Source of the DNA: Solemya velesiana gill symbiont
GTDB lineage: Bacteria > Pseudomonadota > Gammaproteobacteria > Chromatiales > Chromatiaceae
Reading direction: 5' to 3'
Assembly: GCF_002020805.1 (NCBI RefSeq)
Contig: NZ_MPRJ01000011.1
Location: 1-38,496, forward strand
Length of the DNA stretch: 38,496 nucleotides
Shown here: piece by piece, positions 26,547 to 34,864 of the stretch
Layout of the letters: each line of letters starts with the position of its first letter
How positions within the stretch are numbered: the first letter of the stretch is position 1
Notes under the pieces: model-generated
The model's input: the letters and a program-made list of their open reading frames with translations, nothing else
Told to the model about the DNA's origin: nothing
Databases searched by the model: none
Translations under genes and position numbers: made by a program

Positions 26547-27899
26547 ATGGCACGCACCAGACGCAAACGTTTACCCCCGGATCCCGTCAGGGCCCAGGTT
26601 GAATCCATGAGCCATGACGGCCGGGGTGTAACACATATCGATGGTAAGGTGGTCTTCATCCATGGCGCGCTGCCGGGTGACGAGATTGAATTTCTCTACA
26701 CCAGGAAGACCAAGCAACATGACGAGGGGCAGGTCAGCAGTGTCATCACCGCTTCTCCTGACCGGGTGGAGTGGAGCCGCAGTGCGTCCATTTTGGCACT
26801 TGTGGAGGTTGCACAGCCTGCAACATCAAAGATCGGAAACCTAGGTTTCAACCAAGCAGCAAGCCCTCATGGATGCTTTCCAGCGCATAGGAAAAGTGGA
26901 ACTTGGTGAAATCCTGGCCCCCCTTGTTTCACCTTCCTCATGGGGCTACCGCCGAAAAGCCCGATTAGGCGCTAAATATGTACCCAAGAAGGGCAAGGTA
27001 CTTGTAGGTTTCCGGGAGAGGGGATCCAGTTTTATAACGGACATCGAGCGCTGTCATGTACTCCATCCGAAAGTGGGGGAATTGATAACACCACTGGGTG
27101 AACTGATTGCATCGCTTTCAATCAGGGAAAAAAGTGCCCCAGATCGAAGTCTCCATGGGAGACGAGCTCCGAGCTCTGCGTGTTGGTGTTTCGTATCCTG
27201 GAACCCCTGTCCAATGCCGATCATGCCAGCCTGAAGTCATTTGGAGCGCAGCACGACGTTGTTATCTACCTGCAGGAAGGTGGACCAGAGACCATATGTC
27301 CCCTGGAAGGCGAGACAGTAGACTTGCGTTACCGGCTGCCTGCCTACTATCTCGACATCCACTTCCTGCCCAGTGATTTCACCCAGGTGAACAGCGAGCT
27401 GAACCGACTGATGGTGGACCACGCCCTGAATCTGCTCAATCCAGGGGAGACCGATCGCGTGTTGGACCTGTTTTGTGGTTTGGGCAATTTCACGCTCCCA
27501 TTGGCCAGGCGCACTCAAGAGGTGGTCGGTGTGGAAGGTGATGCCGGCCTGGTGGCACGTGCCAGGGCGAACGCCGAGAACAATGGTATCGGCAACAGTC
27601 GCTACTTTACCGCGAACCTTTATGACAGCCTGGATAAGGAACCGTGGCTTCGGGAAAAATTTGACAATGCCCAGCTGGATCCCCCACGTTCCGGCGCCTT
27701 TGAGGTGCTTGAGCATCTTCCCAAGCTGAGGATAGAACGCATGGTCTACCTCTACTGCTATCCTGGAACACTGGCCAGGGATGCAGGAGAGCTTGTGCAT
27801 AACCTGGGATATCGACTGGTAGCTGCCGGGGTAATGAACATGTTCCCCCCATACTGCCCATGTGGAATACATTGCGCTATTCGAGAAGAACTGACTTAA
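26547..27899 (+). pseudogene. rlmD: 23S rRNA (uracil-1939-C5) methyltransferase RlmD, broken by frameshifts
   Basis: The TRAM domain (26547 to about 26780) is in one frame; the iron-sulfur motif CVHFGTCGGC (26783-26812) is in a second; SLQHQ, then an in-frame TAG at 26842-26844, then KQQALMDAFQRIGKVEL and GYRRKARLGAKYV are in the third. VPQIEVSMGDE (about 27128-27160) shifts again, and the methyltransferase domain (VLDLFCGLGNFTLP, QLDPPRSGA, YCYPGTLARDAGEL) is in another frame to about 27848. There, six C bases instead of five push the last codons (expected HTAHVEYIALFEK) out of frame. At least five indels plus one stop are needed to rebuild the protein of about 440 residues. The motif CNP has become CYP. 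Its place near cysM and barA fits RlmD synteny. Confidence 0.88.
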
Positions 27900-31515: not shown

Positions 31516-31615
31516 TATCCACAGTTGATCAGTAGGAAATATCCAAGTAGGATGCGTCTTCAAATTTAGAAAACGTCTAATTCATTTTACCTGACAACTT
31601 TTGGAGGACACTAAA

Positions 31616-32221
31616 GTGGGTGTACTAGTAGGTCGTGAAGCTCCTGATTTTACTGCGCCAGCTGTACTCGGCAGCGGCGAGATTGTTGATGCCTTCAACT
31701 TCAAAGATGCAACCAACGACAAATATGCCGTTGTTTTCTTCTACCCCCTCGATTTCACCTTTGTTTGTCCTTCCGAGCTGATCGCTTTCGATCACCGCCT
31801 GGAAGAGTTCAAAAAGCGCAACGTGGAAGTAATCGGTGTCTCCATCGACTCTCATTTCACCCACAACGCCTGGCGTAACACGCCTGTCAACGAAGGTGGC
31901 ATCGGCCAGGTTGGCTATTCCCTGGTAGCTGACCTGACCCACGAAATCTGCAAGGCCTACGATGTGGAAACCCCCAACGGTGCCGTTGCATTCCGTGGCT
32001 CCTTCCTGATTGACAAGAACGGCATGGTTCGTCACCAGGTGGTTAACGATCTGCCCCTGGGCCGCAACGTCGACGAGATGCTGCGTATGATCGACGCCCT
32101 GCAGTTCACCGAAGAGCACGGCGAAGTCTGCCCCGCAGGCTGGAAAGACGGCGACAAGGGTATGACCGCGACCCCTGGTGGTGTTGCTGCTTACCTCGCT
32201 GACAACGCTGAAGAGCTGTAA
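31616..32221 (+). CDS. 2-Cys peroxiredoxin (AhpC/Prx1 type)
   Basis: This 201-residue thiol peroxidase reduces hydrogen peroxide and organic peroxides. The peroxidatic C51 lies in FYPLDFTFVCPSEL and the resolving C172 in GEVCPAGWKDG. DLPLGRNVDEMLRMIDALQ is typical of this group. The start is GTG 31616, with GGAGGA seven bases upstream; that site rules out the TTG at 31601. Codon choice is strongly biased, as in highly expressed genes. Terminators on both sides make it a single-gene unit. The reductant partner (thioredoxin or other) is not encoded nearby. Confidence 0.95.
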   Translation: MGVLVGREAPDFTAPAVLGSGEIVDAFNFKDATNDKYAVVFFYPLDFTFVCPSELIAFDHRLEEFKKRNVEVIGVSIDSHFTHNAWRNTPVNEGGIGQVGYSLVADLTHEICKAYDVETPNGAVAFRGSFLIDKNGMVRHQVVNDLPLGRNVDEMLRMIDALQFTEEHGEVCPAGWKDGDKGMTATPGGVAAYLADNAEEL

Positions 32222-32566: not shown

Positions 32567-33328
32567 ATGTCAGACTTAGCAATAATCGGCGGTTCAGGCT
32601 TCACGAAACTCGAAGAGTTGAAGATCGTAAGAAGGGAAGTGATACACACCCCCTTTGGTGAACCCTCCTCACCGCTGGTACATGGCATCTTCAATGGGCT
32701 TGAGGTGGTGTTTCTTCCCAGGCATGGGTCTGCTCACACCATACCACCCCACAAGGTAAACTACCGGGCCAACCTCTGGGCCCTCAGCCATATTGGTATC
32801 AAACGCGTCATCGGTGTCGCTGCCGTAGGCGGTATCAGAAAAGATATGGCGCCGGGAAGTATCGTCATTCCCGACCAGATAATCGACTACACATACGGTA
32901 GAAGTCATACATATTTTGAAACGGACCTCTCCCATGTAACCCACATCGACTTCACAGAGCCCTACTGCAATGAACTGCGCAACGCCCTGATTGAGGCTTC
33001 GGAATCTGCCGGAATCGACCTCATAACTAACGGCACCTATGGTGCTACCCAGGGCCCCAGGCTGGAAACCGCGAAAGAGATCGACCGCATGGGCAGCGAT
33101 GGGTGTGACCTGGTGGGCATGACAGGCATGCCGGAGGCGGCACTGGCCAGGGAGCTCGGCGTCTGCTACGCCAGTTGTTCCGTGGTGGCAAATTGGGCAG
33201 CTGGGCGCAGTGATGGGCCAATCACCATGGACGAAATTGAAAAGCACCTGATAGACGGAATGGAGAGGGTGCGTAAATTACTTTCGATATTTGCAGGTCA
33301 AAATTTCCTGCATGACCTTGAAAACTGA
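32567..33328 (+). CDS. S-methyl-5'-thioinosine phosphorylase (MTAP family)
   Basis: This 253-residue purine nucleoside phosphorylase-fold enzyme begins LAIIGGSGFTKLEEL with the phosphate-binding GGSGF loop. It continues with FLPRHGSAHTIPPHKVNYRA, VGGIRKDMAPGSIVIPDQII, GPRLETAKEI and DLVGMTGMPEAALARELG. The family includes MTA phosphorylase, but the gammaproteobacterial branch near nagZ (Pseudomonas PA3004) uses methylthioinosine. That substrate is likely here, though not certain. It follows the REPIN-like repeat and stands alone. Confidence 0.88.
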   Translation: MSDLAIIGGSGFTKLEELKIVRREVIHTPFGEPSSPLVHGIFNGLEVVFLPRHGSAHTIPPHKVNYRANLWALSHIGIKRVIGVAAVGGIRKDMAPGSIVIPDQIIDYTYGRSHTYFETDLSHVTHIDFTEPYCNELRNALIEASESAGIDLITNGTYGATQGPRLETAKEIDRMGSDGCDLVGMTGMPEAALARELGVCYASCSVVANWAAGRSDGPITMDEIEKHLIDGMERVRKLLSIFAGQNFLHDLEN

Positions 33329-33475: not shown

Positions 33476-33780
33476 ATGGTCGACAACGAAAAAAACGAAG
33501 AAGCGCAGGAACCCAAAGAGTCAAAGAAAAAACTGCTGCCGCTCCTAAAAAGAAGGTTGCTGTGAAGAAAAAGACCGCCAAGAAAAAGTGGCTAAAAAGA
33601 AGGTCGCGAAAAAATCTGCTGCCGTCGAATCTGCTACAGTTACACAGGCAGAAACATCAGCTGAACCAACAAGACCCTCGGCCACTGCTGAACCAGCAGC
33701 CGTTGCTTCATCAGTGAAGGAAGAACAGGAAACCGCAGCGCCTGTTGAACAGACTGCGAATAATGCACAAATTCAGAAAA
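33476..33780 (+). pseudogene. Lys/Ala-rich histone H1-like (AlgP-like) gene split by two -1 shifts
   Basis: GGGGAG lies about eight bases before ATG 33476. The first frame begins MVDNEKNEEAQEPKESKKK and stops early at TGA 33562-33564. A -1 shift at an A6 run near 33530 gives TAAAPKKKVAVKKKTAKKK; a second -1 shift near 33587 gives VAKKKVAKKSAAVESATVTQ and an acidic, Ala-rich tail. The joined protein looks like a DNA-binding, Lys-rich histone-like protein of about 95 residues or more. Each shift equals one missing base. The true end is unclear: a third -1 shift before 33761 would reach a TAA, and one after it would enter the frame of the next gene. Confidence 0.6.
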
Positions 33781-33799
33781 ATTGGAGGAAATGGGCATT

Positions 33800-34864
33800 A
33801 TGGCTTCCGAAAACCAGACAAGCCAGACGGAAACCGCTCCTGCGCCTGCACCTAAAAAGGCTAAGAGTTCCATTGGTGGAACGATCGGTAAGATGATTCT
33901 TGTGGCCGCCATCGTAGCCGCAGTCTTTCTGTACATGCAGTCCATCGAACAGAAAGGCGGGGTTGTCGAAACAGCAGTGGAACCAGCGGAAACAGAAGCT
34001 GCCGATCAGCAGCAAGCACAAACCGCTGGCGAACAGCCTGCTATCGTCGTTACAGAACAGGCTGAGGCGGAGCCCCCTGTGCCAGCTGCAGAATCCGCTG
34101 AAACCGTAGAATCTGAAGCAGTGGCTACCGCTGAAGAAACTGCCGACTCATCGGCGGCGGCTCCCGCTCCTGCAGTGGAGGAGACAGCCACTGCCGAGGC
34201 AGCCCCCCAGGCCGACTCCCCGGCAGCTGAAGCGGCTGCCACTGAGACCGTAGTGGAGATGACGGAGGCGGCTGCTCCTGCAGAACCCCCGGCAGAAACC
34301 GCGGAACCTGCAGCACCACAGCCTGAAGCGCCAGTTGCAGAGGTAACGGCCCAGCCTGAAGCTGTACCGCCCCCTGCTGCAGAAGCCACCACAACCGCCC
34401 AGGCAGTAGAAGCTGAAACTCCTGCATCAGCAGAGATTGCACCGGCTGCACCTGCACCATCCAGCGAGGCCTCTGCTGCTGCACCTCAGCGGCCAGCCAG
34501 GCCCACACCGCCAGCACGGCCTGAGTGGGCTACACCCGGTTACAGACGTCCGATGCCTGAGCGCCCTGACTGGGCCACGCGCAGCCGCCCTAAACGCCCG
34601 GATTGGGCCAAGCGCCCGGAACGTCCCCAACCACCTGCACGCCCGAGCTTTGCGGACCGTTATGGCAGCGCAGCGTCAACCTCCGAAGGCGAGGAGGGGA
34701 CCTCTGTGGCAGAACGGCCGGAACGCCCCGTTCCCCCACGTCGCAGCAGACCTTACTACTGGCCATATCCTTACGGCGGTTACGCACCTGCAGCCGCTCC
34801 CTACGGATATGCACCTTACCCCTATTCCTATGCGCCCAGGCCAACAGCACCGGCAGCAGAGTAG
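33800..34864 (+). CDS. membrane-anchored Ala/Glu/Pro-rich protein with RP(D/E)WA repeats and Tyr/Pro tail
   Basis: I do not recognise a family. The 354-residue product has a short cytoplasmic N-terminus, one hydrophobic helix (about 29-46), a low-complexity Ala/Glu/Pro spacer (50-230), an Arg/Pro-rich zone with RPEWA (240-244), RPDWA (255-259) and RPDWA (266-270), and a tail with ten Tyr between 319 and 344 mixed with Pro, Gly and Ala. The topology recalls TonB (anchor plus Pro-rich periplasmic spacer), but no TonB C-terminal domain is present. The tail resembles sulfur-globule envelope proteins in composition only. GGAGG lies 11 bases before ATG 33800; ATG 33791 is an alternative. A terminator follows. 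Confidence 0.65.
   Translation: MASENQTSQTETAPAPAPKKAKSSIGGTIGKMILVAAIVAAVFLYMQSIEQKGGVVETAVEPAETEAADQQQAQTAGEQPAIVVTEQAEAEPPVPAAESAETVESEAVATAEETADSSAAAPAPAVEETATAEAAPQADSPAAEAAATETVVEMTEAAAPAEPPAETAEPAAPQPEAPVAEVTAQPEAVPPPAAEATTTAQAVEAETPASAEIAPAAPAPSSEASAAAPQRPARPTPPARPEWATPGYRRPMPERPDWATRSRPKRPDWAKRPERPQPPARPSFADRYGSAASTSEGEEGTSVAERPERPVPPRRSRPYYWPYPYGGYAPAAAPYGYAPYPYSYAPRPTAPAAE

Follow-up and report, generated by a model that had tools for sequence, protein, structure and literature searches.

The locus and the anatomy of its product

The window, a stretch of 38,496 nucleotides from the Solemya velesiana gill symbiont, carries a gene for a membrane-anchored protein, here called the linker, downstream of mtnP. 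The product of mtnP we take to belong to the methylthioadenosine/methylthioinosine phosphorylase family. The features of the locus are as follows.

32567 to 33328, + strand: mtnP, the conserved upstream neighbour; an ORF with a match in 52 of 57 family genomes
33476 to 33799, + strand: lysine-rich, histone H1-like segment (MVDNEKNEEAQEPKESKKK.. / ..KEKTAAAPKKKVAVKKKTAKKK / VAKKKVAKKSAAVES..NAQIQK), from three-frame translation
33784 to 33788, + strand: Shine-Dalgarno (SD) sequence GGAGG, which precedes the internal ATG at a distance of 11 nt, from the sequence
33800 to 34864, + strand: short form (P0001) of the linker, a membrane-anchored protein of 354 residues; an ORF
33893 to 33943, + strand: core of the single transmembrane helix, residues 32 to 48, from the family profile and an AlphaFold2 helix at residues 26 to 55
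33947 to 34489, + strand: acidic, disordered Ala/Glu/Pro spacer, residues 50 to 230, from composition and a pLDDT mostly below 50
34517 to 34609, + strand: three RP(D/E)WA repeats, residues 240 to 270, with a P-x-W-(A/V/L/M) motif that recurs among relatives
34739 to 34861, + strand: Tyr/Pro-rich C-terminal tail, residues 314 to 354, from composition; most relatives have a Tyr-rich tail

According to the initial annotation, the product of the ORF at 33800 to 34864 has a single membrane helix followed by an Ala/Glu/Pro spacer, by three RP(D/E)WA repeats and by a tail with 10 Tyr within 26 residues, and both residue counts and AlphaFold2 bear this out. The AlphaFold2 model, built on a 5-sequence alignment, contains a single confident helix (residues 26 to 55) and is otherwise disordered, with a mean pLDDT of 50. 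The lysine-rich side precedes the helix, and hence the protein is expected to lie with its N terminus in and its C terminus out. Ala, Glu and Pro make up 65% of the spacer, which has no Tyr, a single Lys or Arg and a net charge of −35, and the C-terminal 124 residues carry a net charge of +9. The repeats read RPEWA at residue 240 and RPDWA at residues 255 and 266. The tail reads PYPYGGYAPAAAPYGYAPYPYSYAPRPTAPAAE, and 10 of the 13 Tyr of the protein fall within residues 319 to 344, a concentration matched in none of 20,000 whole-protein shuffles.

Neither the whole protein nor its C-terminal part gave a significant match in Pfam, NCBIfam, PHROGs or PDB. The C-terminal part was searched separately and yielded no described domain; a clear hit there had been named as grounds against the annotation. 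Searches of Pfam, NCBIfam and PDB found no TonB, TolA, SPOR or peptidoglycan-binding domain, and inspection of the family alignment by eye found no conserved signal-peptidase motif after the helix.

A plain protein search for orthologues returned few matches, because the sequence is of low complexity and drifts. Orthologues were first recognised in relatives as the gene that follows mtnP, and a profile of the membrane region was searched afterwards. Within the organism's family this profile matched once per genome in 60 of 106 genomes, which represent 33 of 61 genera. It also matched in 119 of the 195 genomes of the order draw, and outside the family it matched only G139 among about 318 genomes of the class. 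Most matches adjoin mtnP, and the same layout recurs beside mtnP across many genera. Absence of the gene from close relatives, which had been named as grounds against the annotation, was not seen: the gene is present in the sole other genome of the genus (G001) and in most relatives, and these orthologues rule out an orphan or spurious ORF.

The layout common to the family is an FWxK...GFMYIRS membrane helix, followed by an acidic low-complexity spacer, a short module and a Tyr/Pro/Gly tail. The short module consists of P-x-W-A/V/L/M repeats, of SFxELFGY, or of an amphipathic YEAMRREADERMRQYWERM helix. Tyr accounts for a median of 12% of the last 60 residues in relatives, compared with about 0 in the spacer, and the helix and the Tyr tail are the most widely retained parts.

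The spacer changes freely. In the G051 orthologue (L037, 132 to 1874) it consists of about 20 PVASE repeats, and in G045 (L138/L011) it contains a Met-rich repeat, GMSGMSGMAGAEDQK, which is ended by the contig end and recalls metal-binding Met repeats. A gene for a Sel1-repeat/SH3-like secreted protein lies directly downstream of mtnP at four loci (L016, L031, L027 and L020), and in two of these, L016 and L027, it separates mtnP from the linker gene. The gene of G139 (L224, 3031 to 3615), a member of another family of the class, encodes a lysine-rich part, a membrane helix and a Tyr/Pro tail in an unrelated neighbourhood, in a genome with sulfur globule proteins.

The lysine-rich segment and the internal start

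About half of the relatives (approximately 27) have an AKKK-rich, H1-like segment fused in frame upstream of the helix, starting with MADEE.. or similar, and thus possess the disordered Lys/Ala-rich segment characteristic of H1-like tethers. Purple-sulfur-like members have no such segment and keep helix and tail. In the window the segment is present in broken frames only: positions 33476 to 33799 pass from one frame to the next through all three, and three −1 shifts, located at A-runs, would have to be undone to give an intact fusion. Judged by the sequence, the natural gene start probably lies upstream of 33800, at about 33476, and includes the lysine-rich segment. The segment of G051 matches NF038053 with an E-value of 2e-5, a match that does not reach the cut-off and reflects H1-like composition. 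An HC2 (PF07382) match in the same protein was discarded, as it covers the PVASEP repeat rather than the lysine-rich part.

The simplest reading of the frame breaks in the window is that they are probably assembly indel errors, because rlmD, also in the window, is frame-broken too. The lysine-rich tract is likewise broken in G001 (L124, one +1 insertion) and in G139 (L224, 2783 to 2950, one −1 shift), and the breaks at A-runs in the three genomes may be due to errors, slippage or phase variation. Programmed frameshifting is not favoured, since the signs of the shifts differ, the frame is unbroken in almost every other fused relative, and rlmD in the window is broken as well. The frame-broken rlmD (23S rRNA m5U methyltransferase; 26547 to 27896, + strand) reflects either assembly indels or a decayed gene.

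In the fused relatives the position of the ATG at 33800 is taken by an internal Met, and in those without the lysine-rich part by the only start. The SD energy at the matching Met of 23 fused relatives averages −8.6 kcal/mol, compared with −3.0 kcal/mol at 219 other internal Met residues and −7.1 kcal/mol at sole starts. Synonymous resampling gave a combined p of 0.002 with relatedness ignored, and it attributed part of the signal to the Glu-rich residues encoded there. Selection on the SD sequence itself is hence supported less strongly than its presence. This arrangement suggests that one gene likely gives rise to a long and a short product.

Sulfur globule proteins and the C-terminal tail

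Sulfur globule proteins (SGPs), which coat the globules, are small, with a mass of about 10 kDa (PMC10892978). The symbiont's own genome encodes SGPs above the Pfam cut-off (PF17228) on three contigs (C49, C65 and C70), as well as dsrA (G000:C107:15171-16376). Dsr was dropped as a discriminating trait, because nearly all family genomes carry dsrA. The DsrA matches of the family fall into two score classes, of about 540 to 570 and of 600 to 690 bits, and some genomes have both; the DsrA of the symbiont belongs to the lower class, and two DsrA lineages are possible. An atypical SGP was seen in G001 (L260, C170); its C terminus is extended by a long charged stretch (..MAERNERIKELEERRAEVMKQIEERRAHRNI) that is probably helical.

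The initial annotation had likened the tail to sulfur-globule envelope proteins in composition. The composition agrees and SGPs are indeed encoded in the same genome; a PF17228 match is missing. With membership defined as a score above the gathering score of 26.7 bits, PF17228 is not matched by the linker: the window protein had no Pfam match of any kind up to E = 10, its C-terminal part had none either, and the best PF17228 match in the linker family, the G051 tail (E = 0.038, 15.3 bits), falls below the gathering score. The linker is thus not an SGP by the Pfam criterion. The SGPs of the symbiont end in GAPYGYGAPYGYGAPYG...APVAPQAPA (GAPYGYGAPYG..APVAPQAPA), and on a profile built from the SGP C-terminal half the window tail reaches 33.8 bits, where shuffles average 19.3 bits (p = 0.02). 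For the family as a whole, the p-value on this profile has a median of 0.12, and a reversed tail often does equally well. The order signal is modest and homology between tail and SGPs is not established; the likeness appears to be mainly compositional. Such likeness would suffice for the co-assembly of disordered Tyr-rich chains and is no proof of descent.

A comparison of sulfur-storing with non-storing relatives had been recommended. An SGP is encoded in 59 of the 60 family genomes with the linker gene and in 37 of the 46 without it (Fisher p = 0.002). At genus level the gene is found in 33 of 55 genera with SGP and in 0 of 6 without (p = 0.007), and about four SGP losses were inferred on the MtnP tree. 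Within a 20-genome clade around the window, all 14 SGP-positive genomes with readable tails have a tail-bearing gene, compared with none of 5 SGP-negative genomes; the p-value of 9e-5 for this clade precedes any correction for kinship, and an independent-pairs test of the SGP-gene link has too few pairs. Of two SGP-negative genomes, G068 retains the gene but has lost its Tyr tail, and in G013 only the lysine-rich segment and the helix are left (127 aa). Against the link, the Tyr tail is absent from G104, which has one SGP-like match. G139, the sole carrier outside the family, combines lysine-rich segment, helix and Tyr/Pro tail with an SGP. The linker gene is nevertheless dispensable for sulfur storage, because many SGP-positive genomes are without it, for example that of Candidatus Thiobius zoothamnicola (G009). 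Outside the family, 46 of 318 genomes have an SGP and only 1 has the linker gene.

A possible role in holding sulfur globules

We tentatively propose, at somewhat less than an even chance, that the protein sits in the inner membrane as a linker and keeps hold of periplasmic sulfur globules through their coat, and that its long form, where the lysine-rich segment is present, adds a grip on nucleic acid or another polyanion. It would be a single-pass protein with a cytoplasmic N terminus, and its long acidic spacer would let the basic P-x-W module and the Tyr/Pro tail reach the periplasm. There the tail would mix with or dock on the SGP coat and so fix the globules to the membrane. Translation from the upstream start would give the long form, which could bind nucleic acid or a different polyanion of the cytoplasm, for example polyphosphate; translation from the conserved internal start would give the short form, which does without the lysine-rich segment. 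Anatomy, conservation, synteny, the conserved internal SD and the co-occurrence with SGPs are observed, and topology, coat binding, nucleic-acid binding, the use of both starts and globule positioning are proposed on that basis. We infer a granule-binding function from the tail composition and the SGP co-occurrence. Our confidence in a link of the family to sulfur globules is moderate, and our confidence in a link to the nucleoid is low. Purple-sulfur-like members have no lysine-rich part, so the function common to the family would be membrane holding and not nucleoid binding. The suggestion of a surface or granule scaffold reaching across the periplasm fits in so far as a tethered scaffold with an SGP-like tail is concerned; the H1-like segment, the internal start and the conserved family had escaped notice.

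The closest functional parallels are AlgP and PhaF, nucleoid tethers of granules in which an H1-like segment is joined to a granule-binding module (PMC9239181, PMC13052382). They share with the linker a disordered lysine/alanine-rich segment joined to a further module. However, AlgP and PhaF serve cytoplasmic granules, are soluble cytoplasmic proteins without a membrane span, and have their lysine-rich part at the C terminus, whereas in the linker that part is N-terminal, is followed by a conserved membrane helix and a periplasmic part, and is missing from part of the family. By analogy, the linker may work like AlgP and PhaF, with a coat-binding tail and across the membrane, and it could position or segregate sulfur globules as PhaF does PHA and AlgP polyphosphate. 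A stronger version, in which the short form docks on globules, the long form from the other in-frame start also grips the nucleoid, and globules are positioned and inherited with the chromosome, seems to us unlikely.

SgpA, SgpB and SgpC (PF17228) resemble the linker in a Tyr/Pro/Ala/Gly-rich C-terminal part with APYGYAPY-like strings, in an expected periplasmic location and in being encoded in the same genomes, but the membrane anchor and the long acidic spacer, together with the lack of a PF17228 match, set the linker apart. SgpD of Allochromatium vinosum, of a sulfur-globule-forming family, has regularly spaced prolines and short helices (PMC10386293) and by this description is like the linker; it differs in its cleavable Sec signal peptide and its gene neighbourhood. 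A search for an SgpD-like paralogue of the C-terminal helix/tail module turned up only the mtnP-linked gene. As for the TonB-like topology proposed earlier, the layout of anchor and Pro-rich spacer stands and any further likeness to TonB does not: the linker shares with TonB and TolA an N-in single helix and a Pro- or Ala-rich periplasmic spacer, but has neither C-terminal domain, and no ExbBD-type neighbours were seen. The linker is thus neither an SGP by Pfam, nor a TonB, nor an AlgP or PhaF by layout.

Might the protein be a general cell-envelope linker of TonB/TolA-like layout, whose P-x-W module and tail bind peptidoglycan or the outer membrane, with the SGP link a matter of shared ancestry? 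We consider this possible but rather doubtful. The N-in helix with its long Pro-rich periplasmic spacer and the basic C-terminal region (+9) would suit such a protein, and the gene is nearly confined to one family, so the co-occurrence with SGPs could be kinship, a point on which the independent-pairs test is underpowered. However, the searches found none of the TonB, TolA, SPOR or peptidoglycan-binding domains, SGP-less genomes lose the tail or the gene, and the outside member G139 is also SGP-positive.

A different emphasis would make the lysine-rich segment and the helix the working part, which anchors nucleic acid, ribosomes or polyphosphate, and the periplasmic part a drifting appendix. 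The H1-like composition of the segment (the sub-cut-off NF038053 match in G051) and G013, which retains solely these two parts, agree with this. We nevertheless think it quite improbable, given the purple-sulfur-like clade with helix and tail and no segment, and the fact that helix and Tyr tail are the parts kept most widely. The density of Tyr and Pro could also mean that the tail is a substrate for oxidative Tyr cross-linking or for binding of a periplasmic enzyme or metal, as a redox buffer or glue unconnected with sulfur globules. A peroxiredoxin gene just upstream of mtnP (31601 to 32218) points weakly, and probably incidentally, in the same direction. With no Cys, His or metal motif conserved in the tails (by eye) and no such enzyme as a conserved neighbour among the loci examined, this explanation is very unlikely.

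If the preferred reading of a globule-holding linker is true, the family offers a first testable handle on how periplasmic sulfur inclusions are anchored and how they are distributed when cells divide, and its dual-start layout of lysine-rich segment, membrane helix and Tyr tail would extend the PhaF/AlgP strategy across a membrane. Carboxysomes, magnetosomes, PHB and polyphosphate granules are treated in a 2025 review of the positioning of bacterial compartments, which leaves sulfur unmentioned. The family, its motifs and the mtnP synteny are concrete enough to locate the gene in cultured species. Such a role would be relevant to purple sulfur bacteria and to the symbionts of tubeworms and clams; the gene is carried, among others, by the endosymbiont of Lamellibrachia anaximandri (L046) and by a symbiont of Ctena orbiculata (L047).
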